22,664 bases of DNA, from positions 1 through 22,664 of IMG/VR virus record IMGVR_UViG_3300008448_000713; one strand, given 5' to 3'. Made by a program: the position numbers and the translations under genes. The notes below the pieces were generated by a model. It worked only from the letters and a program-made list of their open reading frames with translations, did no database searches and was not told the origin of the DNA. Shown here in pieces: positions 5,619-22,664 of this stretch. Source of the stretch: a virus. The first letter of the stretch is position 1, and each line of letters opens with the position of its first letter.

Positions 5619-7025
5619 TTAAGAACGCTTAATCAAAACGTGACGGTTTGCAGCACGAGTTACCAGAGCAATCTCTGACAAATAGTTGAACTGCAGTACG
5701 TCCAAGGTTGAGTTGGTGGCACCCATGAAGGAACCAGTCAGCCAGTGGTTCATCTCACGAGAGATGCCGTTGGTCGACTTGTAGTTAATCTCCAGAGGGA
5801 ACTCACGGTTTCCAGTCTTGGGGTCTACAACAGTAGCCATTGGAATCATGGCACCAGCGAATCCGATACCAGAAGCGGTCGTGGCAACTGAAGTACCGAG
5901 CAATGTTGGCTCGTTCAACAGTTTCCAGTCATGCTTGTGGAAGGTATAACCGCCACGTCCGAATGATTTGAATCCAAGTTCGATAGCCATGTTCGGGCTG
6001 TTGTTGAATGCACCGAATTGAGTGGCGACACCAGCGGTTAAGCTAGAACCAACACCCTTGGCTACGAGGTCGTCGAATGCAAGGTCTTGCAGACGGTCAA
6101 CGTAGACAGCGTACTCAGGGCCAGCACCGTTACGGTCAAGGACGGTCAAGATAACATCGAGGTCAGTCAAGTTGTCCAAGTATCCGTTGGTTACAATGCC
6201 TCGGTCTTCGAGAGCTGAGAAGTAACCTTCAGAACCGCTGATGGTTCCAGAGCCAAATGCGCCAGTTGCAGCAGTGGTGTTCTTCTGACCGAGCAACATC
6301 ATCATCTCACGCTTGTCCATGAAGCGCTGACGGGTATCAGCCTCACCCTTGATGAACCAACGATAATCTCCACCTCCTACGTCCACCCAGCCGATGTTTG
6401 TGGCCTGAGAACCAGTTACTTTGAAGATTTCTTTGATAATCATGTAAGGGTTGGTGCGCTTAACAAGGTTTGACTCCAAGTATTGGCTTGGCTGGTCGGT
6501 ACCCTGTCCGTACAAGTTACCGATGATAGGCAAGTTGTAAGGGGTTCCGCTAGTTGCAGATACCAAGGCGGTGCTTGTCAAGCTCTGGAATGTGTAGCTG
6601 TTAGTCCCAGTTGCGACAACGATAGCACGCTGAGTGCCATTGATATTATCCCAAAGGACAACATCATTAAGGCGAAGTACAGATGTGCCAGAGGTTGTTG
6701 CTGGGGTTACATTGACCACCAACACTCCAGACGCAGCGGAGCCAGAGGTAGCAGTGAAGCTAGCCTGAGGGTGGAGACGCTGCTCTTCCCACCACTGAAC
6801 TTCGTCAGCAGTACCAGCAGTTTTAACAGCACCTACCAGCTGAAGAAAGCCAGTGATACCTTGGTTACCGAAAGTCTTAACAAGCTGAGTGCGATTATCA
6901 GGCTTGTTGATTTCGTTGAGATATTGACCCAGAGAGATATACTTGTCTGGGGTTGCGAGCCTAAGTGCATTAGGCGCTGAGGTTAGTGTGCCTTGAGAGG
7001 CAACTGTTCCTGATGCGTTTGCCAT
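5619..7025 (-). CDS. Major capsid protein
   Basis: The 468-aa product has the size and composition of a phage major capsid subunit and forms the icosahedral shell. The N-terminal arm (1-70) is followed by the motif VQWWEEQRLHP (76-86), then a Ser/Thr/Gly/Val-rich beta segment at about 88-165 that looks like an inserted domain. After this comes a helical stretch with KGEADTRQRFMDKREMMMLLG (226-246), resembling the long spine helix of HK97-fold subunits, and a C-terminal half with EYAVYVDRLQDLAFDDLV, a GFKSFGRGGYTFHKHDW stretch and IALVTRAANRHVLIKRS. It lies immediately after an acidic scaffold-like gene (26-base gap) and within the portal-terminase block, the standard place for the capsid gene. 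No SD is present; an A-rich leader precedes ATG. The assignment rests on context, size and these patterns, without a homology search. Confidence 0.82.
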   Translation of the reverse strand: MANASGTVASQGTLTSAPNALRLATPDKYISLGQYLNEINKPDNRTQLVKTFGNQGITGFLQLVGAVKTAGTADEVQWWEEQRLHPQASFTATSGSAASGVLVVNVTPATTSGTSVLRLNDVVLWDNINGTQRAIVVATGTNSYTFQSLTSTALVSATSGTPYNLPIIGNLYGQGTDQPSQYLESNLVKRTNPYMIIKEIFKVTGSQATNIGWVDVGGGDYRWFIKGEADTRQRFMDKREMMMLLGQKNTTAATGAFGSGTISGSEGYFSALEDRGIVTNGYLDNLTDLDVILTVLDRNGAGPEYAVYVDRLQDLAFDDLVAKGVGSSLTAGVATQFGAFNNSPNMAIELGFKSFGRGGYTFHKHDWKLLNEPTLLGTSVATTASGIGFAGAMIPMATVVDPKTGNREFPLEINYKSTNGISREMNHWLTGSFMGATNSTLDVLQFNYLSEIALVTRAANRHVLIKRS

Positions 7026-10928: not shown

Positions 10929-13391
10929 TTAAGATTCTTGTTGGGTTGGTTGTTGCTGTCCACCTAAGATGGCCTCCATCAATTCTTCGTTCTCTGGCTT
11001 AATCTCTCCACGCTCGCCCTTGCGCTGGCTGATGAGCTTGGATTGCTCAACGGCCTGCTTCTGGATTCGCTCGTCCTTGGCTTGCTCCTTGGTCTGTTCG
11101 AGCTGTTGACGGAAAGCCTTATCGCCCTGGTCAATCATGCCCCTCATTTCCGCCTCGACCTTCGCAAGCTCCATCTTCAACATATACTCCTGTTGCAACA
11201 GCTGGGACTTTGATTGGGTCTCTAGCTGAATCTTCTGTGCCACAAGCTGAGCCTCCGCTTGAAGCTCTTGAATCTTGGCCTGTGATGTAACCATAGCCGT
11301 CTGCTGATTTGCTTGGGCTTGCATCTGGCTGTTCTGAGCCGCAATCTCTTGGTTGCGCTTGATGCGCTTCTTCCTTCGTACAAGGAGCAAACGCTCCGCC
11401 TGGTCGATATCCTTCAGCTTGCGGATTGCGATAACGTCCTCAAGGTCGATTTCACGCTGAGCCAAGGAGGCTTGGATGTTCGCCTCTAAGTAAGCCCTGT
11501 CGACATCGGACATCTCCGTGACCACATGAACACCGAAGTTATACATCGGTAGGTCAGAGAAGGAAGAGAGAACTTGCATATTGGACTTACCGATAGCGTT
11601 CTCGTAAACCTTGTAAATAACGGAATCCGTTGGCATAATCTGCAAGCAACGAATGATGTCCTCGCAAACCTTCTTGTACAGAACCAAGGTACCGTGTGTG
11701 ATGTCATAGACAGCGTTGTTAGACGCTTCAATAGCTTGCTGACGAACTCCAACCAATGCATCGCCCTTTGGTGTTGAACCATCGACGACTTCGTTGATAC
11801 CCGTGGCATCACGAATCATGCGTAGGTAGTGGTTGTATAGATTGACAAGTTCGTTGATGTTCCTAATCTGGTTCTCAATCGAACGGATAGGCGGATTCTG
11901 GAAACCACCCTCTGGGTTCTTGGAGCGATAGTAGAAGATACCAGTCTGCTCGTAGATGTCCTGAATCTGCAACGGCTGCAAATCCCCACCCTGACCGAGC
12001 TGCACGTTCTCCAACCCCTCAACGTCGATAATCAAACCGTCTGGCTTGGCTTTCGCAATCGCTTGCTGAATCTTCAAGTGCGTAATCTGCAGCTGGTCAG
12101 CAAAGCCGATGACCGAGCCAACCATAGACTTGGGTTGTAACCTGCGAAGGTTAACAGCCACAGCACTGTAAGACAGCCTGGCACGGGTGATGTCATGTAC
12201 ATTCCGAGGGATGTTCTTCTTCATCCCGTAATTGTAAATCAAGTTCGTCCCGACAATGAAGCTACCACCGTAAACCGTGGTGTAGGACATCTTGTAAGGC
12301 TTCCTGTCGTATACGCTGTCACGAGGAGGCGTGTATACATTGCCCTTGTAGTAGAATCCTACATTCCCAAAGCGAGATTCTTTCCCCTCGTAATAGATAT
12401 CGTCAACGGACAAGAACTCAAAGTCAAGAACCTCAACGATATACTCGTCGTACCCGTAAACAGTTCGCTGGCTGTACCTGTCGTAGTTGCTCATGCTCAT
12501 ACGCCCAGGGTTGTTTGCATACTTGTACTGAACGTCCCTAGCTACTCTCTCGTAATCTTCCTCCGTCAGCTGGTCCCCAGCTAAACGCTTTAACTCCTGA
12601 ATGCTGATGCGCTTGATGTGCCCAGCGTAAGAGAGGTCCGCCATGTTAGGGTCCTCCGTGTAGGAGTGGACGAAATAAGATGGGTCCACATAGTTCGTTG
12701 CAATACCATAGTTCGGGTCGTTGTCACGCTTCGTTACAGCCATACCGAGTGCAACAAGGTCGTTGACGCAGCGCCTGAGCACCCCGTCGTTGAAGTCATT
12801 CCACTCAAGCGTTAGATTGGCTGCAATCTGCGATGCAATCTCCGCATTGGTCTTCACGTTGCTCTCAAGGAAAATCTCAGCCTCCTCTGGGGTCTCTGGT
12901 AGCTTTTCTACGTTAACCCCTGTGTTGATGCCAAGCTCGTTGGCCATGGCAATCGTTTCCTTGTTATTAATCTCGAAACGGACCTTCGCCTTCTTATCCT
13001 CCTTCTCTGAGATGGATAGCGGGTCAACGGCCTCCACGTTCGGGTAAGGCTTGCGTGAAAGAATCTTGTTAACGACGATACGGACGAACTTCGGCACGAT
13101 GGGGACTGGAGACCAGTCTAGGTTCAGCAAGGAACCGTCCCCGTTGTTGGGGTCCAGCGATGTGAGAATCTGCTTATAGATGGATACGTCTTGCGTACCG
13201 TTGGCGTAGTCCCTATTCCGCTCAAACTCCCCAAAGCGCCTTGCGAAAACACTCTGCGGGTCTTCCGTCCTTCCCCACTGGGATTCAATAGCTTTTGCGT
13301 ATTTTAGCCCGTAAGCCTTTTGTTCCTTGGCTTCCCTTGGAACTAATGGGTTTGGGAAATTCCCGTATGGGAAATTGAAGTCTTTTGCCAT
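10929..13391 (-). CDS. Portal protein
   Basis: The 820-aa product is the dodecameric gate at one capsid vertex through which DNA is packed and ejected. Evidence: it is the next gene after the large terminase, has portal size (at the long end), and its features suit a portal: an N-terminal region with VPIVPKFVRIVVNKILSRKP, a central segment with RDATGINEVVDGSTPKGDAL followed by GVRQQAIEASNNAVYDITHG, the stem/wing pattern seen in many portals. From about residue 685 the C-terminus is a long Gln/Lys/Glu/Ala-rich coiled coil (QAQANQQTAMVTSQAKIQEL and following), like the extended C-terminal helices of large portals in Bacteroidetes podoviruses. It is preceded by a promoter element 25 bases upstream and by the terminase terminator. 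Neighbouring short genes follow by one-base gaps. Confidence 0.85.
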   Translation of the reverse strand: MAKDFNFPYGNFPNPLVPREAKEQKAYGLKYAKAIESQWGRTEDPQSVFARRFGEFERNRDYANGTQDVSIYKQILTSLDPNNGDGSLLNLDWSPVPIVPKFVRIVVNKILSRKPYPNVEAVDPLSISEKEDKKAKVRFEINNKETIAMANELGINTGVNVEKLPETPEEAEIFLESNVKTNAEIASQIAANLTLEWNDFNDGVLRRCVNDLVALGMAVTKRDNDPNYGIATNYVDPSYFVHSYTEDPNMADLSYAGHIKRISIQELKRLAGDQLTEEDYERVARDVQYKYANNPGRMSMSNYDRYSQRTVYGYDEYIVEVLDFEFLSVDDIYYEGKESRFGNVGFYYKGNVYTPPRDSVYDRKPYKMSYTTVYGGSFIVGTNLIYNYGMKKNIPRNVHDITRARLSYSAVAVNLRRLQPKSMVGSVIGFADQLQITHLKIQQAIAKAKPDGLIIDVEGLENVQLGQGGDLQPLQIQDIYEQTGIFYYRSKNPEGGFQNPPIRSIENQIRNINELVNLYNHYLRMIRDATGINEVVDGSTPKGDALVGVRQQAIEASNNAVYDITHGTLVLYKKVCEDIIRCLQIMPTDSVIYKVYENAIGKSNMQVLSSFSDLPMYNFGVHVVTEMSDVDRAYLEANIQASLAQREIDLEDVIAIRKLKDIDQAERLLLVRRKKRIKRNQEIAAQNSQMQAQANQQTAMVTSQAKIQELQAEAQLVAQKIQLETQSKSQLLQQEYMLKMELAKVEAEMRGMIDQGDKAFRQQLEQTKEQAKDERIQKQAVEQSKLISQRKGERGEIKPENEELMEAILGGQQQPTQQES

Positions 13392-13426: not shown

Positions 13427-13447
13427 AAAAAACGCTGATAATCAGCG
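13427..13447 (-). terminator. Terminator overlapping the large terminase stop codon
   Basis: On the minus strand CGCTGA-TTA-TCAGCG (13447-13433) forms a six-pair stem with a three-base loop, followed by six T (13432-13427). The terminase TGA stop codon (13444-13442) is part of the left stem arm. The short stem suggests partial termination, letting some transcripts continue into the portal block. Confidence 0.6.
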
Positions 13448-15568
13448 GATTATAGGTTTGTGCTTTCTGAAGAAGACTTTATCTGACAAATCGGCCTTTT
13501 TGATGGGTTGCTTGTACTTCTGAGCTGCCAAAAGGGCAAGTCCCGAAGAGATGGTTAAGTCGAACTTGGTACGGTCATCCACCTTGAAGTTAATCCAGTC
13601 CTCCAGCGTGCGCTCGAAATACATCCTCCCGTACTCCCCAGTCTCGTCGTGGATGCCGACGTGCTCGTGGATATACGATTCTATGGACTGAGCGTGCGCC
13701 TGGATAACATCTTGACTATTAGAGGGGATACCCTTGGTCTTTATATTTGCATTGCTATGGGGAGCCCTGAGATGTTCTGGTCGGTCAAGAATGAACCCGT
13801 CATATCCTCGTGCCTCGAAGTATCTGAAAATCCCATATTTATTGTTTTCAATGAGAAGTGGGTATCCGAAGAATACGGAAGCCTGGAGAACGTCCTCATA
13901 GAAAATCCTCGCAAGAGGTGGCCTCTCTGCGTATTCGGCAACAAAAACGTTGGATGGGTGCTCAATGTTGAATTTGTTGAATAGGTGACAGGAGCCCTTA
14001 GAGCCCCTACCGTCCATCGTATTATCAATATCGTAGGAGTCGACTCCCCCACATCCCATGTGCTCGTTCATGGGGTAGAACTTGCCGTTCCTGATAGACT
14101 TCAGGTTCCTCAAGTGCGCTGGAGGTAGCCAAGAAACCCTCCATTTGCCGTTAGCATCTGGGGACCAAAGGACCTCCGTATCGGGTATCCCGTCCTTCCA
14201 GACGAAGTTTCCACGCACAATCGGGTCTGGGTAGAGCTCCCTATTGTACTGAATCTGCTCGTAAATCTTCCCGATATTGAAGTGGGAGGACTTGGTTGAT
14301 TCCCTGAAGGCTTCATCCTCCGTCCATGGGAACTGGCGTATAGCCTCGTTTAGCTCGTATCCATCCTTGCTGAGGGCCTTGCGTTCGTTTGAGAGGTAGG
14401 TCTTAGCCCCAATCGACACCATATCCCCATCCATGGTCATCACGGGGGATTTTGGGTTCTCAACGATGGGCATCCCGTAAATGTCAAAGAACCCCTCAAG
14501 GGCCTCGTAGGCTGGGACGAATATCCTGTAGAGGCCGCTCTTCGTGCGACCGTTCTCATTTCTATCTGTTGGGTCGGAGTCAACATAGAGCTTTCGAAAG
14601 TTGGCCCCGCCCTTGTCTAAGGGATTCACGGTGCTACCAATCAGCGCCTTTCCAACGACCTTCTTACCAACGATGAGACAGGTCCTATGGATTCGCCACA
14701 CCTCCGTGATGTCCATCGGGTTCTCCCACTTGCCAGCCTCGTCGAGGTAGAGCACATACAGCTTCTCACCGTCATAGGCGTTCGAGGTCGTGTTCTTCCA
14801 GTTGATGACTGTGTCTAGTGCCTCCGTTCTTGTGGTGGTCTTGTTGGTCTTCGTAATGCGCTTGGCGGGCTCCCTGAAAGCAAGCTCAACCCTTGGGTTT
14901 GTTGTACCGTCCTGGATAGGCTTGAAGAAGAATGGGTAGCTCCTATACATCGGGAGTACCTTCTTCATGAATATATTCTCCTGAGCGTCCTTACCAGTCT
15001 TGGACATAATCCCAAGAACCTTGTCAGAAACGAGTGTACCCTTGTTAACGATGATGGAGGAGCTGATGTTCGTATAACCGCTACGCCTACACTTGACGTA
15101 AACCTGGCCTATGCAGCGTGGGTCTACGAAACAAGCCTCCGCATGGATGTAAAGCTTCCTTTGGAAGTCTAGGTATCCACCGTAGCCGATGTCCATCTGG
15201 CTCCATTGGAGCAACATATAGTGGTCTCCAGTGATGTAGGTGGGTTCCCCGTTGTTGTAGAACCAAACCCCGTTCTTACGTCTGTTAAACTCCTCAGCGA
15301 TGTAGGGGGTGAAACGGTCCTTGAACTCCTTTGGCTGCTCGTTCCACTCGTCCATCGAACGAATCTTCATGAGCTCCTTGGGTGGGGTTATGCGCTCCCA
15401 CTTCTGCTGAGCCTTGGGCTTTTCGTTGAAGAGAATCTTGCTCTTTTCGGGCTGTTTCGGTAGTTGGATGAGGATTTCGGCTATCTCAATAACCTCTCCG
15501 CTCGTATCCTGGGGACAGATATTGATGACCTCTGACTTGAAGCCCTTGATATTCTTTAAACCAGCCAT
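13442..15568 (-). CDS. terL: Terminase large subunit (packaging ATPase/nuclease)
   Basis: The 708-aa product drives ATP-dependent DNA packaging into the prohead and cuts concatemers. The N-terminal ATPase domain shows a divergent Walker A around VKCRRSGYTNISSS (158-171), a Walker B YVLYLDEAGK (271-280, with Asp276-Glu277) and a coupling motif IGSTVN (310-315). The C-terminal RNase H-like nuclease shows a first acidic site in GVDSYD (508-513), an AEYAERPPLARIFYEDV strand-helix, and a last acidic residue in TKFDLTISSGLALLAAQ (667-683). It starts at an ATG overlapping the stop of the 97-aa gene (TAATG) and lies directly upstream of the portal gene. Walker A lacks the usual GKT/GKS and instead has the RRxGYT form seen in some T4-like and Bacteroidetes phage terminases. 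Assignment is firm. Confidence 0.92.
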   Translation of the reverse strand: MAGLKNIKGFKSEVINICPQDTSGEVIEIAEILIQLPKQPEKSKILFNEKPKAQQKWERITPPKELMKIRSMDEWNEQPKEFKDRFTPYIAEEFNRRKNGVWFYNNGEPTYITGDHYMLLQWSQMDIGYGGYLDFQRKLYIHAEACFVDPRCIGQVYVKCRRSGYTNISSSIIVNKGTLVSDKVLGIMSKTGKDAQENIFMKKVLPMYRSYPFFFKPIQDGTTNPRVELAFREPAKRITKTNKTTTRTEALDTVINWKNTTSNAYDGEKLYVLYLDEAGKWENPMDITEVWRIHRTCLIVGKKVVGKALIGSTVNPLDKGGANFRKLYVDSDPTDRNENGRTKSGLYRIFVPAYEALEGFFDIYGMPIVENPKSPVMTMDGDMVSIGAKTYLSNERKALSKDGYELNEAIRQFPWTEDEAFRESTKSSHFNIGKIYEQIQYNRELYPDPIVRGNFVWKDGIPDTEVLWSPDANGKWRVSWLPPAHLRNLKSIRNGKFYPMNEHMGCGGVDSYDIDNTMDGRGSKGSCHLFNKFNIEHPSNVFVAEYAERPPLARIFYEDVLQASVFFGYPLLIENNKYGIFRYFEARGYDGFILDRPEHLRAPHSNANIKTKGIPSNSQDVIQAHAQSIESYIHEHVGIHDETGEYGRMYFERTLEDWINFKVDDRTKFDLTISSGLALLAAQKYKQPIKKADLSDKVFFRKHKPIIR

Positions 15569-15861
15569 TATTTCGCAAATTGCTCAGCAAACCCGCTGGA
15601 ATAGTCCGTCTTGTCCTCAATTTCCCCCTTATCCTTCAGCGCTATAATCATATCCTCAATCCTCTGCCTCTCTTGGAGCAGTTCTCTAGCGTCGACAACA
15701 GTTTGTTTGATGGATGACAGCTCAGCTTTCCTTGCCGCACCAGTCAAATCGGGTGAAACAGGCTTGCGAACCTCTTCAATCATGTTGTGAATGGCGTGTT
15801 CCATCGACAACAGGAGGCTTTCAGCTGCTTCTACCGTCGAGAATTTACGCTTTTTCGACAT
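15568..15861 (-). CDS. Small helical protein, candidate small terminase subunit, 97 aa
   Basis: The product is almost wholly helical: a basic N-terminus (MSKKRKFSTVEAAESL), a first helix to about residue 32, and a second long heptad-like helix (SIKQTVVDARELLQERQRIE, then DMIIALKDKG), ending in SSGFAEQFAK. Small terminases recognise the packaging site and feed DNA to the large subunit, and are usually encoded immediately before it; here the stop overlaps the terL start as TAATG. There is no clear helix-turn-helix, and at 97 aa it is short for the family, so the assignment depends mainly on position and helical build. It overlaps the co-chaperonin gene by 17 bases. Confidence 0.45.
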   Translation of the reverse strand: MSKKRKFSTVEAAESLLLSMEHAIHNMIEEVRKPVSPDLTGAARKAELSSIKQTVVDARELLQERQRIEDMIIALKDKGEIEDKTDYSSGFAEQFAK

Positions 15862-16432
15862 AAAGGATGTCGTCTATTCGCATACGATAGACCGTCTCAC
15901 CGTCCAACTCCATCTCATAGTCAGCATCCCTTGCGAAGACAACCGTGTCCCCCTTAGCGATACCGTAGTGCTCAAGCGTGTCGGAGTCGTAGGCCACCGT
16001 GGCGACGTTCTTCTTAACAACTTCAGGTAGCAAGATGATGCCAGAGGATGTTTTGTCCTCTTTTTTCTTCTCGATATGTACGAAGACCCAATCCGAAAAC
16101 AGCCTGATAACCCCGTCACGCTTGTATGCATAAGCCTGTGTGGCATGACCACCGTGCTCTGAATATCGAACGAGGTAGATGTCCTTCTCTATCTCCGCAC
16201 GCTTGTCAAGAACCACATGGTGGTGAAAGTACAGCGTATCACCGACCTTCACTGGTGTATCGTGCTTCTCTGGCACACCAACAACCTCCCCGTAGCAGTA
16301 CCTGTTCTCAAATTCACGGAACTTGTTCTCAAGATAGAACTCTTGACCAGCCATGGTAAAGGTGTCCTTAAACTTCTTAGGGAGCCTTACAAGGAAGTCC
16401 CTAACGGGTTTTAAATCAGAATTTGCAGTCAT
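15845..16432 (-). CDS. GroES-type co-chaperonin with two fused Cpn10-like domains
   Basis: I start at the ATG at 16432, giving 195 aa. The second half (about 112-195) reads as a Cpn10 domain: WVFVHIEKKKEDKTSSGIIL with LPE as mobile loop and hydrophobic tripeptide, then KNVATVAYDSD, IAKGDTVVFARDADYEMELD and MRIDDILYVEKA, matching the GroES order (strand, loop, 'GDxVxF', 'G.EV..DG', 'DIL.V'). The first half (9-105) repeats the plan in degenerate form: PVRDFLVRLPKKF, YCYGEVVGVPEKHDT, then VKVGDTLYFHHHVV. Host GroEL with a phage GroES (as with T4 gp31) folds capsid protein; this product likely acts the same way in the cytoplasm. It is twice the usual length, like plastid Cpn20. It overlaps both neighbours by 17 bases. 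Confidence 0.78.
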   Translation of the reverse strand: MTANSDLKPVRDFLVRLPKKFKDTFTMAGQEFYLENKFREFENRYCYGEVVGVPEKHDTPVKVGDTLYFHHHVVLDKRAEIEKDIYLVRYSEHGGHATQAYAYKRDGVIRLFSDWVFVHIEKKKEDKTSSGIILLPEVVKKNVATVAYDSDTLEHYGIAKGDTVVFARDADYEMELDGETVYRMRIDDILYVEKA

Positions 16433-16625
16433 ACTCAACGATTACAGGCATTTTATTAATAGTTTTCCAATGGAGCGTCCCTTCGGAGTTCTCGATGTAG
16501 ACATCGAATCTGTCCCCAGAATCATGCTCCTCGATGGCGACGACATGACCGCCACCTGCTGCCATGCCTATAAAGTAGGCCATAGCGTCCTTGGGGTTGA
16601 CCCCAATGATAATCTTACGAATCAT
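16416..16625 (-). CDS. Small conserved-looking protein of unknown function, 69 aa
   Basis: Unrecognised function. The sequence starts MIRKIIIGVNPKDAMAYFIG, continues with MAAGGGHVVAIEEHD, and has a beta-type second half (RFDVYIENSEG, then MPVIVEYDCKF). The N-terminal 'KIIIGxxPKxxMAYxxGxxAGGG' pattern looks like a conserved family of short proteins in phage structural blocks. The gene follows the 125-aa gene by one base and overlaps the co-chaperonin start by 17 bases, so it is probably co-translated with it and may work in the same assembly step. Confidence 0.55.
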   Translation of the reverse strand: MIRKIIIGVNPKDAMAYFIGMAAGGGHVVAIEEHDSGDRFDVYIENSEGTLHWKTINKMPVIVEYDCKF

Positions 16626-17915: not shown

Positions 17916-19754
17916 TTAGAGGGTTGTGAGGGCTGCGAGTTCAGAATCACTTAAACGGGTATTGTAAAGCGCAACGTCTCTGCATTGTTGATTTCCAGGC
18001 CCAAATATGAGGGCCGCATGACCGAAAACAACGCTATCTAATGCAGCCGTAAAAGTAAATGCGGTTGTGTTTGTGCTTCCAATCTTTGTTCCATTGATAT
18101 AAAAAGTCGTATCACCGCTTTTATACGCAATCGCTACCTTTAAGAATCCTGTTCGTACGGTGGTGTCTATAATTGATAATGCCGTGGAACCTCCTGCGTA
18201 TATTCTTGCAACCCAATTTGTTGTTGTGGTTTTAAGAAATACAACCGAATTTGTTACATTTCTGTTGATATAAATAATGTCCTGCGTATTCGTATTATTA
18301 CTAAGTGCATTTCCCTCCCAATAAATCGTACCCTCCGTCTGACCGATGTAATCCGTAGCCCCGCTTAGAGTTACTACATCAGCGCTTCTTGATGCGGCTG
18401 CAGTCGTTGTTGGTATCACGGATGTGGCAACGCTCCCCAATTCCATTTGAGGTAAACCGATTCGGATGGTGAAGTTGTAGGTAGTACCTGAAACAAGAAC
18501 AAACTGAATAAGCGGTTGAACTCTTGCCGTTGAAGCGTTGGCCAATGTTCTTGTAAAAGAAAACCTCGTTAGAGATGATGTCAATGTAGCGATTGCGCTT
18601 CCTTCTGCTAAATAAGTACCGCCAGAATTAAATTCATAAATAGTAACTCTTGCTGCTGGTCTATTCCCTCCAGCATCGGCTATCTGCTTTATCCACATAC
18701 TGTTGGTCCAAGCCTGACCTGACGCTGCGACAATTTGACTGTTTGTTTCAAAGCTATATGTAAGCGCAGCACCCGTTGCCGTTCCGCTTACTTGTACATC
18801 AATATAATCAACCCCATTTTCAGACCCAACCCCAACAATGGTTCTCGTTAATCCATTTAGAGTTGTTGAGTGATTTGTTGGCAAAGTACCTGGCGTTCCC
18901 GCAACCGCTCCGACCATCGTGTTGTTGCGTATGCTATTGGTCGCAGCAGGCTCTATAAGCAATGCAGGGGAACCCCCAGTATAGTCAATTCTTGGGATGT
19001 TATTAGCGTTTGCTGCGTTTACAGTTAACCCACCAAATATGGTTACTGCGCTGGTTGTGGTTGGAATATAATCAGTTACGTTTGCAGTAGGTTCGTATTG
19101 GGCCCCGTATATGTATATGCCAGAAATACCGTCACCAGCGAAATCTCCTGTGTTTGACGCTGGCTGCATATTTATCCTTACGGTTTCGTTTGCTGTGGAA
19201 GCAGCTTTTGAAATAATGCATCGATACCATCCATTTCCAAATGACCGTATTGAGGTCACGATACCTGTATCCGTAACGGTTATTGCTCCTGTATTAAGGT
19301 TAAAGTCACCACCTACGCTACCTATCCTGAGCCTGCAAAAATTGTAACCTGCAGCTTTGACAAAAACAGAGAATGTGTAACTGCCAGAAGCAGATACCGT
19401 TACTTGGTCGACACGATGCTGAACAGCTGGAGTAGTGTTTGCTACAATTAAGTCGGCAGAATTGCCTCCAAAAGGGTCAAGAGTCCCAGTTGTGTTTAAA
19501 ACGCTTCCACTGCCAAATGCAAGTAAATTTGTTTGAGTCCAAGTCGTTCCAAAGTTTTCGCTCTGCAACGCTAGATTCGTCCTAGGGGCCTCAATAAACC
19601 CGCTTGAATTAACCCTGGTAGCTAATGATGCCCTGGTGGCAGAAAACTCACGCTTGACGAAGAATCCGTCATCAGACTGGTAGTAACCTAGCAGATTGCT
19701 AAGCTTAATTCCCCAGTTGTTGCGCCCTATAACGATTGTCGGTGTTGCAGCCAT
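17916..19754 (-). CDS. Modular fibre/lectin-type protein, 612 aa (third of three paralogues)
   Basis: All-beta protein with an N-terminal lead (1-55, with TRASLATRVNSSGFIE), a first carbohydrate-binding-like module (about 58-240) containing FGNGWYRC (172-179) and GAQYEPTANVTDYIPTTTSA, a second, more divergent module (about 255-455) starting PRIDYTGGSPALLIEPAATN and ending with MELGSVATSVIPTTTAA, and a C-terminal LamG/concanavalin A-like domain (about 456-612) with IGQTEGTIYWE, VAIAYKSGDTTFYINGTKIG and VALYNTRLSD. These modules are common in phage tail-fibre and receptor-binding proteins, where they bind surface glycans. It follows its paralogue by three bases. The likely role is host recognition on the virion; a secreted or capsid-surface adhesin is the alternative. 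No enzymatic motif is visible. Confidence 0.7.
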   Translation of the reverse strand: MAATPTIVIGRNNWGIKLSNLLGYYQSDDGFFVKREFSATRASLATRVNSSGFIEAPRTNLALQSENFGTTWTQTNLLAFGSGSVLNTTGTLDPFGGNSADLIVANTTPAVQHRVDQVTVSASGSYTFSVFVKAAGYNFCRLRIGSVGGDFNLNTGAITVTDTGIVTSIRSFGNGWYRCIISKAASTANETVRINMQPASNTGDFAGDGISGIYIYGAQYEPTANVTDYIPTTTSAVTIFGGLTVNAANANNIPRIDYTGGSPALLIEPAATNSIRNNTMVGAVAGTPGTLPTNHSTTLNGLTRTIVGVGSENGVDYIDVQVSGTATGAALTYSFETNSQIVAASGQAWTNSMWIKQIADAGGNRPAARVTIYEFNSGGTYLAEGSAIATLTSSLTRFSFTRTLANASTARVQPLIQFVLVSGTTYNFTIRIGLPQMELGSVATSVIPTTTAAASRSADVVTLSGATDYIGQTEGTIYWEGNALSNNTNTQDIIYINRNVTNSVVFLKTTTTNWVARIYAGGSTALSIIDTTVRTGFLKVAIAYKSGDTTFYINGTKIGSTNTTAFTFTAALDSVVFGHAALIFGPGNQQCRDVALYNTRLSDSELAALTTL

Positions 19755-19757
19755 AAA

Positions 19758-21662
19758 TTAAACGATAGAATAAGATAAACTTGATGCAAGAGCTGAATAA
19801 GACTGAATCTGTGATGTTGCTGATTCTAGGAGGTAGTTCGGTAGACGGGTTTTGTAGATGGCAGCAGCACGGATGCGGTCGTTGAGGAATATAGTATCCG
19901 TATTAAATCGGGTTCCAATTAACACCTCCGAGCAAGTAGGCACATTTCCGCTATTATCCGTAGCAACTGAAGCCCCATTCACATACATAGCAAAGTCATT
20001 CTGCTTGTAGGTTAGGGCTACCTTGTAAATTCCATTGGTCAATGTTGAGCCAAATAACGCTGCTTGCGTTGCGTTGCTTACTTGAACCAAAGAATAAAAC
20101 CTGTTTGTCCCTCCCGATTGCCGCTCAACGCCTAAAATAATAGCATTTTGTAAGTTATTTGCTCCAACATTAAGCGCAACGATTCCAACCACAGGTGAGC
20201 CTACTTGGGGGAAAGTCCTAACATCCACCTCCACATAAATCGTCCCCTCGGTCTGCCCAATCAACCCACTAACGCTAGTCTTGTTTATGACATCCGCATT
20301 TCGGGTGACGGTTGATGCAACCGTTGGGATATAGGAAGTGGCTATTGGCCCTGTTTCAAGCTGTGCGCCCCAGATGTAAATCCCAGCTACGCTATTCCTG
20401 ATTTGAGCAGCCCTAATCAGTTCAACCTTTGGGTTGGTTACAGTTGCAGCTGTGGTGCCAGATACGGATACCCTGTACCATCCATTGCCGTAATTCTGGA
20501 TTGTTCCACCTGTTACCGTCGCTGTGCTAAGGTCAAAGGAGCAAATGAAAGCAGGTGTCTCGTCCGTGTAGAACCTTATCGAGGCCGTATCGTAATCCTT
20601 CTTCTTCACGAAGAGACTAAGCGTATGGGTGGTTCCAGTTGCAAGGGATAGGAACGTCCTCTCGATAGCTGAATCAATGCCTACACCAGTGTCGATGACG
20701 TACGTTGTAGCATCGTTAGTCCCGTCAGGGGAGACGGTTGTACCAAAAGTAACGACCCCGTAATTTTTAGCCCAATAACCATTAGCGAAATCCTCGCTAC
20801 GCTGTAGCAAATTTGTTGCCGCTGGCTCTACAAGCAAGGCTGGGCATCCTGGTGTCCCATCACCCATGTAATAATCAAGCCTTGGTACAGAGTTGGTTAC
20901 TGCTGCCGTGGTCGTTGGAATGTAAGCTGTTGCTGATGCTCCAACTTCAATTTGCGCTCCAAAACCGTAAAGAATATCAGTAGTTGTGCCTGAAAAAGGA
21001 AACGCACGAGTGCTACCGCTTGACGTTATCAGAATCGCAGCGACCCCAGCTCCACCTGCCGATACAGCAGCCGTAGCAGTAAATTGACAACGATACCATC
21101 CGTTGCCGTAATTTTCGATGCTTGCAGACCTGTTTGTGTCTGCGGATGTCCCAGTTACAACTGCAACCGTGCCAAGTTGAAGGTCAAAGTTTGCATAACC
21201 TAATTGAGTGAACGAATTCCCAACACCTGGGAAAGTCATTTGAACATACCTTCCAGCAACTCCAGTTCCTTGCTTGAAGAATGCGCTTTGCGTGTAAATC
21301 GTTCCGCTGGTGTATGCTATAGTAGTCGGACTGTTGGATTGAGCAATGTGGGATGAACTGCCTGAAGTTGGACTTATAGCGTTAGCCAAGTTCGTGCCAA
21401 AAGGGTCAGTCGTTCCGCTTGTTCCAGTTACGACCGTTACTGCGGAATTAAGCCAGTTATTTGCTGCAATCCATGAATGAGAATGCCATGCCAAATTAGT
21501 ATTGGCTGGGATGGTTTCGATATACCCCAATGAATTGACACGGGTTGAAATCGTTGCACGAGTGACCGTTAGGTCTCCCGTACCGTCCATTGGCTCCTGA
21601 CACAAGAGAGTACCAACCCCGTACTTCGCAGGTATCATTTCTATAGATGGTACAATGTTCAT
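19758..21662 (-). CDS. Modular fibre/lectin-type protein, 634 aa (second of three paralogues)
   Basis: Same design as its neighbours: lead (1-55) with LTVTRATISTRVNSLGYIET, module 1 (about 52-257) with SAFFKQGTG, YGNGWYRC (185-192) and GAQIEVGASATAYIPTTTAA, module 2 (about 258-455) starting PRLDYYMGDGTPGCPALLVE, with NLLQRSEDFANGYWAKN, YGNGWYRV (391-398) and GAQLETGPIATSYIPT, then a LamG-like domain (about 456-615) with IGQTEGTIYVE, VALTYKQNDFAMYVNGASVA and AAIYKTRLPN. Module 1 is close to the visible module of the paralogue to the right at both DNA and protein level, and module 2 is the part that paralogue lacks. Its ATG overlaps the preceding stop (ATGA). A receptor-binding role is inferred from the lectin-like folds and tandem arrangement. 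Confidence 0.7.
   Translation of the reverse strand: MNIVPSIEMIPAKYGVGTLLCQEPMDGTGDLTVTRATISTRVNSLGYIETIPANTNLAWHSHSWIAANNWLNSAVTVVTGTSGTTDPFGTNLANAISPTSGSSSHIAQSNSPTTIAYTSGTIYTQSAFFKQGTGVAGRYVQMTFPGVGNSFTQLGYANFDLQLGTVAVVTGTSADTNRSASIENYGNGWYRCQFTATAAVSAGGAGVAAILITSSGSTRAFPFSGTTTDILYGFGAQIEVGASATAYIPTTTAAVTNSVPRLDYYMGDGTPGCPALLVEPAATNLLQRSEDFANGYWAKNYGVVTFGTTVSPDGTNDATTYVIDTGVGIDSAIERTFLSLATGTTHTLSLFVKKKDYDTASIRFYTDETPAFICSFDLSTATVTGGTIQNYGNGWYRVSVSGTTAATVTNPKVELIRAAQIRNSVAGIYIWGAQLETGPIATSYIPTVASTVTRNADVINKTSVSGLIGQTEGTIYVEVDVRTFPQVGSPVVGIVALNVGANNLQNAIILGVERQSGGTNRFYSLVQVSNATQAALFGSTLTNGIYKVALTYKQNDFAMYVNGASVATDNSGNVPTCSEVLIGTRFNTDTIFLNDRIRAAAIYKTRLPNYLLESATSQIQSYSALASSLSYSIV
19870..20255 (-). 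repeat. LamG-region DNA shared with the first fibre paralogue
   Basis: Within the C-terminal domain coding region, 17 bases at 19870-19886 recur exactly at 21837-21853, and 22 bases at 20234-20255 recur exactly at 22171-22192. These are remnants of duplication of the LamG-coding segment between tandem fibre genes and are possible recombination sites. Confidence 0.7.
21100..21195 (-). repeat. Module DNA shared with the first fibre paralogue
   Basis: Seventeen bases at 21100-21116 recur exactly at 22449-22465, and the 27 bases at 21169-21195 recur at 22518-22544 with one mismatch. Both pairs have the same offset (1349 bases), showing that one continuous module-coding segment was duplicated between the 634-aa gene and its upstream paralogue. 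Confidence 0.7.
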
Positions 21663-22664
21663 ACGATAATAAGTTGGTTGTGTCTCGTTTGAAGGCAGCT
21701 CTGTAGCTCACTGAACGAGCTGGTCCTAGCTGCAAAGGTCCCCCAAATCAAATCCCTCACGTTTGAGTAATGGGTTGGGTAGGTTAAGAGCTCTAGTTCT
21801 TCGTTAGGGAGCCTTGTGGTGTAGAGGGCGGCAGAGCGGATGCGGTCGTTGAGAAATAGTGCCGAACCATTATCTTCTTGTTTCCCCAAAAATATTGTAT
21901 TACACGCTGGGACTGTTCCGCTATTATCAGTTGCAACCTGAACGCCATTAACATATAATGCAAAATCATTTAAAGCGTAAGCAAGGGCTATTTTATACAC
22001 ACCATTTGCTCTTAAAGAATCGGAAACAAATTGTATTACCCCTCCATTAGTAACAATAGCCCTGAGGTTATTACTTGACTCAAAAGAAAGAAGTATTCTG
22101 TTAGAAATACTGTTATCAGATAAAGCAATTAACCTTCTTGACTGACTTATTGCATTGTAAACAACCTCCGCATAAATCGTCCCCTCGGTCTGACCTATGC
22201 AACCGCTGACTGCGCCTGATAGGCTTATCACGTCTGCGTTGCGTGTTGCGCTTGCGGTCGTTGTAGGGATGTAGGATGTTGCGATAGAGCCTGTTTCGGT
22301 TTGCGCTCCCCAGCCGTACAAGATGTCCGTAGTTGTGCCAGAAAAACTTGGTAGTCTTGTTGCTCCGCTTGTTTGAATTAATACGATGGAGATACCATTT
22401 CCTGTTCCAGAGTTGTTGCAGGTTGCAGTAAATCTGCATCGATACCAACCGTTGCCGTAATTTTCAATAGAAGCAGCCCTATTGGTGTCCGCAGCCGTTC
22501 CGCTTACAGCTGCAACTGTGCCAAGTTGCAGGTCAAAGTTTGCAAACCCGTTTTGTGAAAATTGGGTTACTGAATAAGTCAACTGAACATATCTCCCAGA
22601 ATTACCTGTTCCTTGCTTAAAAAAAGCACTTGATGTATAGACCGTTCCGCTTGTAAAACTTGCA
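21659..22664 (-). CDS. Modular fibre/lectin-type protein, N-terminus cut by window edge (first of three paralogues)
   Basis: The frame is open at the right edge; 334 residues are visible, beginning ASFTSGTVYTSSAFFKQGTG. An in-frame TTG at 22582 is not a credible start because clear homology to the 634-aa paralogue continues upstream of it. The visible part holds the second half of one carbohydrate-binding-like module (NGFANFDLQLGTVAAVSGTA, then YGNGWYRCRFTATC and GAQTETGSIATSYIPTTTAS) directly joined to a LamG-like domain (CIGQTEGTIYAEVVYN, then KIALAYALNDFALYVNGVQV and AALYTTRLPNEE), plus a C-terminal extension of about 30 residues after the LamG end, longer than in the paralogues. Its stop overlaps the next ATG (ATGA). 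Likely a receptor-binding or fibre protein. Confidence 0.7.
   Translation of the reverse strand, partial: ASFTSGTVYTSSAFFKQGTGNSGRYVQLTYSVTQFSQNGFANFDLQLGTVAAVSGTAADTNRAASIENYGNGWYRCRFTATCNNSGTGNGISIVLIQTSGATRLPSFSGTTTDILYGWGAQTETGSIATSYIPTTTASATRNADVISLSGAVSGCIGQTEGTIYAEVVYNAISQSRRLIALSDNSISNRILLSFESSNNLRAIVTNGGVIQFVSDSLRANGVYKIALAYALNDFALYVNGVQVATDNSGTVPACNTIFLGKQEDNGSALFLNDRIRSAALYTTRLPNEELELLTYPTHYSNVRDLIWGTFAARTSSFSELQSCLQTRHNQLIIV

Follow-up and report, generated by a model that had tools for sequence, protein, structure and literature searches.

The window, the whole 22,664-nucleotide stretch of viral DNA analysed here, carries a gene for a tandem GroES-like protein of 195 residues (Table 1). 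The gene order is the 69-aa ORF, the tandem gene, the 97-aa ORF, the terminase large subunit (TerL) and the portal. The preliminary description placed the tandem gene in a packaging block with 17-base overlaps on both sides. The coordinates bear out the overlaps (16416-16432 and 15845-15861), and the TerL, portal and head-protein matches (phrog_6681, phrog_6547 and phrog_13704) confirm the block. All five sequence strings it cited (PVRDFLVRLP, YCYGEVVGV, VKVGDTLYF, GIILLP and DILYV) are found in the translation.

A family search with the 69-aa upstream ORF gave no match, and its product is a candidate partner of the tandem protein. The 97-aa ORF would, at a guess, encode a small-terminase-like part, and the phrog_13704 head protein is a possible folding client of the tandem protein. 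In one related locus (L060, 2349-3200), the tandem protein and the 97-aa ORF lie in one reading frame, either by true fusion or by an indel error. Elsewhere in the window, three long minus-strand ORFs in series (17916-22582) share similar repeat segments (NYGNGWYRC, TSYIPTTT), and the second of them has matches to phage tail families (phrog_5939).

Table 1. Features of the tandem gene and its neighbours in the window
Feature	Coordinates	Strand	Basis or remark
Tandem GroES-like protein, 195 aa	15845..16432	-	ATG at 16432, stop ends at 15845
N-terminal GroES-like domain, residues 1-106, diverged, without roof hairpin	16115..16432	-	hhalign to Cpn10 profile; AF2 and Cpn20 superposition
N-half hairpin at mobile-loop position, residues 24-34, TFTMAGQEFYL	16331..16363	-	AF2 strands 24-27 and 30-33; profile alignment
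H70-H71-H72 after GDTLYF, N domain	16217..16225	-	conservation among 40 representatives
C-terminal Cpn10 domain, residues 107-195	15848..16114	-	PF00166, 36 bits; Z ~8 to GroES structures
C-half mobile-loop tripeptide region GIILLP, residues 131-136	16025..16042	-	inside low-confidence AF2 loop
69-aa small ORF directly upstream of tandem gene, 17-base overlap	16416..16625	-	homologues upstream in most loci
97-aa ORF between tandem gene and TerL, 17-base overlap	15568..15861	-	homologue there in 73 loci
Terminase large subunit (TerL)	13442..15568	-	phrog_6681, 8.8e-191
Portal protein	10929..13391	-	phrog_6547, ~1e-193 (1.2e-193)
Virion structural (head) protein	5619..7025	-	phrog_13704, 6.9e-113

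A Cpn10 domain with a canonical loop of the GroES/gp31 type makes up the C half. Residues 110-191 match PF00166 (E=7e-9, 36 bits; cut-off 21.1), in line with the Cpn10 pattern first read there from the sequence, and the half superposes on GroES structures with a Z of about 8. Cpn10 matches at E<=1 are found in 51 of the 69 aligned family members, and an NCBIfam search gave GroES matches below threshold only. The loop, KTSSGIILLPE in the window, holds the hydrophobic tripeptide of a mobile loop (GIILL). The structure prediction is of low confidence around it (pLDDT 78 and 65 in the blocks of residues 121-140), as is expected for a mobile loop.

Structure prediction was run on the whole chain with a 69-sequence alignment. 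The AF2 model has a pLDDT of 90 and a pTM of 0.84; its low-confidence parts are chiefly the N terminus and the C loop. Its best PDB match is plastid Cpn20 (7ekq_R; Z 11.2, rmsd 4.0, 169 residues, model residues 1-194), and the T4 gp31 structures 1g31 and 2cgt are also among the matches. Both halves superpose on the tandem Cpn20, their exact mutual orientation being loose at this rmsd, and the N half comes out GroES-like. A separately modelled relative from clade B (pLDDT 83) again has Cpn20 as its best match (Z 10.3, 160 residues). Both halves are thus GroES-like and placed as neighbouring protomers.

In the predicted model two barrels stand next to each other in the manner of plastid Cpn20, and a short turn, KRDG, links the final N-domain strand to the first C-domain strand. 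The strands so joined would in effect make a GroES subunit interface within one chain. The roof beta-hairpin of Cpn10/GroES is missing from both halves, being a gap in the N-half alignment and replaced by a short helix (residues 151-155) in the modelled C half, and neither half is predicted to have room for it. This hairpin is not universal in the fold, as gp31 lacks it. Alcohol dehydrogenases also match both halves structurally, which is due to the GroES-like domain and has no enzymatic meaning.

Profile comparison and predicted structure show that the N half, too, is a GroES-like domain, though a diverged one. Alone it has no Pfam match, and the PF00166 cut-off is not reached for it separately. 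The N halves of the family, dereplicated to 28, were aligned as a profile by hhalign with one of phage-encoded single-domain Cpn10 and E. coli GroES. This match spans roughly residues 4-70 with a probability of 87.7% (E 3.4e-6) and leaves the GroES roof residues unmatched; none of 60 column-shuffled or reversed decoys exceeded 5%. The N half compared with the C half of the same family gives a weaker 42%. The decoy-controlled match and the superposition on Cpn20 uphold the view that the N half repeats the Cpn10 plan.

The same alignment sets a hairpin, AGQEFYL in the window, opposite the GroES mobile loop. Its family-wide pattern is G-x-E-[LIF]-[YIF]-[LIV], and it is present in 40 of 40 representatives (all below 75% identity to each other) and never gapped. 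Among them E31 occurs in 27, and positions 32-34 are hydrophobic in 100, 90 and 95%. The preliminary description saw no mobile-loop tripeptide in the N half. This stands as far as the canonical G-I-V/I-L motif goes, which is absent, but a diverged and conserved hydrophobic hairpin, G-x-E-h-h-h, occupies the place.

H70 and H71 are each found in 39 of the 40 representatives, and the third position is H or N. This HH of the N domain has no counterpart in E. coli GroES and is a possible metal or partner site. The N half is the more conserved one, with a mean entropy of 1.88 versus 2.20 for the C half. The earlier suggestion of a non-binding N half is thus unsupported, as this half is better conserved and its hairpin occupies the mobile-loop position throughout the family; the variable part is the C-half loop, which many relatives lack.

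The tandem protein is real and widespread, one member of a catalogued family and not a one-off. A family search gave a full-length match to phrog_13932, annotated as co-chaperonin GroES and 200 aa long (5.5e-30, residues 8-193 to profile positions 2-199), and over 500 related stretches were found in IMG/VR. The scans there with two different queries found 528 and 540 relatives, two sets that may overlap. The tblastn relatives are Cellulophaga phages (Pervagoviridae and Pachyviridae), Maribacter phage Panino and MW202828. Identity of the window protein is 23-26% to the proteins of the isolates and 96-99% to those of several metagenomic contigs. From the isolate hosts and a Bacteroidetes MAG whose copy is 46% identical, we infer an aquatic bacterium of Bacteroidetes type as the phage host.

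A cpn10 gene is one of the eight core genes of Pervagoviridae (PMC8776804), which could be either the tandem or the single-domain one; the Calle_1 record labels both proteins chaperonin Cpn10. We found no description of tandem GroES proteins in phages in the open-access literature searched. In that literature the family appears uncharacterised, and both the fused form and its persistence beside separate phage GroEL and GroES genes seem unremarked. Relatives also gave weak matches to other Pfam families (MazE antitoxin, CDC48_N and NPL4), which were taken as barrel-shape noise. At about 0.87 Mb in CP070801.1 (L229, 8001-8423), a 1.05 Mb chromosome labelled Aenigmatarchaeota archaeon, lies a tandem gene of clade B accompanied by TerL and the small ORF; the phage there is probably mis-assembled or integrated.

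A chance ORF or an artefact is ruled out by the phrog_13932 match, the hundreds of relatives and the confident model. That the fusion, or the likeness of the N half, arose by chance or assembly error is improbable in the extreme, for although the N half alone lacks a Pfam match, length and plan recur in independent isolates and hundreds of contigs, the AF2 model is confident and the profile match is decoy-controlled.

The synteny is strict. TerL follows the tandem gene directly or after one small ORF in 189 of the 195 loci with room, and the 69-aa ORF family lies immediately upstream in 164 of 183; these counts include a few window duplicates and two single-domain Cpn10 loci (L017 and L024) that entered through the iterated profile. 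A homologue of the 97-aa ORF stands between the tandem gene and TerL in 73 loci.

Several relatives encode chaperonins of their own. Phages phi38:1, Calle_1, Panino and MW202828 have GroEL and a separate single-domain Cpn10 in addition to the tandem protein, and phi18:3 has a separate Cpn10 without GroEL. GroEL was found in 12 of 38 further records, all of them MW202828-like clade B. Hence, GroEL capping by the tandem protein cannot be assumed family-wide. In the window lineage no GroEL or other GroES was seen. Neither GroEL nor a second Cpn10 was found in the 51-65 kb window-like contigs G002, G006-G009, G013 and G015, which are linear and of unstated completeness, so the absence of GroEL from the lineage is unproven.

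The C loop is deleted in clade B (DSYIKKPFSEEPLMG) and degenerate in phi38:1 and Panino. Thus three lineages with their own GroEL and single-domain GroES have this loop deleted or degenerate and retain the tandem protein. L186, a sister of phi38:1, has no GroEL match in 72.8 kb and a canonical C loop (GSIIVP). Overall, the canonical C loop occurs in 0 of 12 with their own GroEL versus 7 of 9 without, a count that discounts two automatic matches (L012 and L111) lying beyond the loop on inspection. The count is striking, and the uncorrected table gives a Fisher p of 0.009, but the tree offers only two independent pairs and the association is not significant. The tie between C-loop loss and own GroEL is a lead and does not amount to a test.

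Of the HHH-type sequences, once dereplicated, about half retain the canonical hydrophobic C loop. In this clade the loop also appears as an acidic variant of the KSDILELV type. One such loop is in L074, a 61.6-kb contig without GroEL, so the rule linking loop loss to GroEL is not strict. The acidic sub-clades (L074, L066, L077 and relatives) echo the N-half hairpin pattern G-x-E-h-h.

For the window lineage we favour, at about an even chance, a roofless tandem co-chaperonin for head or packaging proteins that docks on the host GroEL by its C-half loop. The N- and C-terminal strands left free in each tandem unit would pair between units in the GroES manner, closing the GroES-like domains into a ring. 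Such a ring would be even, of six or eight domains, from tandems alone, and of seven if three tandems took in one single-domain GroES of host or phage. With no GroEL or GroES of its own seen in the lineage, the C-half loops would dock on the GroEL of the host. The lid would be open like that of T4 gp31, which would suit a large product of the neighbouring head or packaging genes. Tandem Cpn20 and GroES concatemers of six to eight domains function with the 7-fold GroEL (PMC5780408).

Another reading, possible but on the unlikely side, is a head-assembly or packaging factor of GroES fold that has lost the work of a GroEL lid. Its N domain, with the hairpin and HH, would bind a packaging or capsid protein, and its C loop would be a remnant or serve other binding. 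Consistent with it, the tandem gene is retained beside TerL in phages with their own GroEL and single-domain GroES, where the C loop is deleted or degenerate. The better conservation of the N half, its ungapped loop and the strictly kept gene order with TerL and the 69-aa ORF fit as well. Against it, an unused loop would drift, yet the canonical form persists in the window lineage and in roughly half of the dereplicated HHH-type sequences.

The N-half loop, which is not a canonical mobile loop, counts against the favoured co-chaperonin reading. The main doubt about it is that relatives which encode GroEL and GroES themselves retain a loop-less tandem protein, so that the core function common to the family may do without GroEL. 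These loop-less tandems point to a second, GroEL-independent role for the conserved N domain. The duties might even be split, a reading we put forward tentatively and hold rather doubtful: the N domain with its hairpin and HH as a packaging or head-assembly module, and the GroEL-docking loop of the C domain as an option kept with the host GroEL and lost with own GroEL and GroES.

Less probable still is a mixed ring, in which tandem chains and single-domain GroES of phage or host make seven domains, an arrangement proposed for Cpn20 and Cpn10/11 of plastids. The Cpn20-like arrangement and the separate single-domain Cpn10 of many relatives speak for it, as do the seven-domain hetero-oligomers of plastid co-chaperonins (PMC5780408). 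However, clade B tandems would add no canonical loops to such a ring, and the window phage would depend on the GroES of its host. This reading overlaps with that of a co-chaperonin docking on the host GroEL.

A large terminase-linked phage family of tandem plan, persisting beside phage GroEL and GroES, is a natural test of how many GroEL contacts a lid requires. It equally tests whether the GroES fold was reused for head assembly or packaging.

Tandem co-chaperonins have been described for plastids and apicoplasts. The likeness to plastid Cpn20, already drawn in the preliminary description along with the tandem fold, is borne out by the superposition and the decoy-controlled profile match, the two having two GroES-like domains head to tail. 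They differ in that identity is 17% and the phage gene sits in a packaging operon. A sequence search of the PDB aligned each of the two Cpn20 domains with the window C half, whereas the phage N half is diverged and, without the canonical tripeptide, departs from the Cpn20 type of canonical mobile loops in both domains. The tandem plan is probably convergent between phage and plastid.

T4 gp31 shares the phage co-chaperonin fold, the missing roof hairpin and a similar mobile loop; the window loop and the loops DEEVTESGIIT and DEEVTESGIVV, from window-like relatives, are close to that of gp31 in the T4 record, GDEEVTESGLIIGK. It is, however, a single domain of 111 aa, its gene lies among non-packaging genes away from the terminase genes in that record, and the sequence profiles of gp31 and the tandem family barely match.

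The single-domain GroES of phages and bacteria (PF00166, phrog_3188) resemble the C half, which matches them above cut-off, but the window protein is fused to the second, diverged domain and lacks their roof hairpin. Also close are the phrog_13932 proteins of the isolates (Cellulophaga phi38:1 gp089 and phi18:3 gp096, Calle_1 and Maribacter Panino), which have the same length and the same place before TerL and portal. They differ from the window clade, which has the GIILLP loop and no separate GroES or GroEL seen, whereas phi38:1, Calle_1 and Panino encode both.
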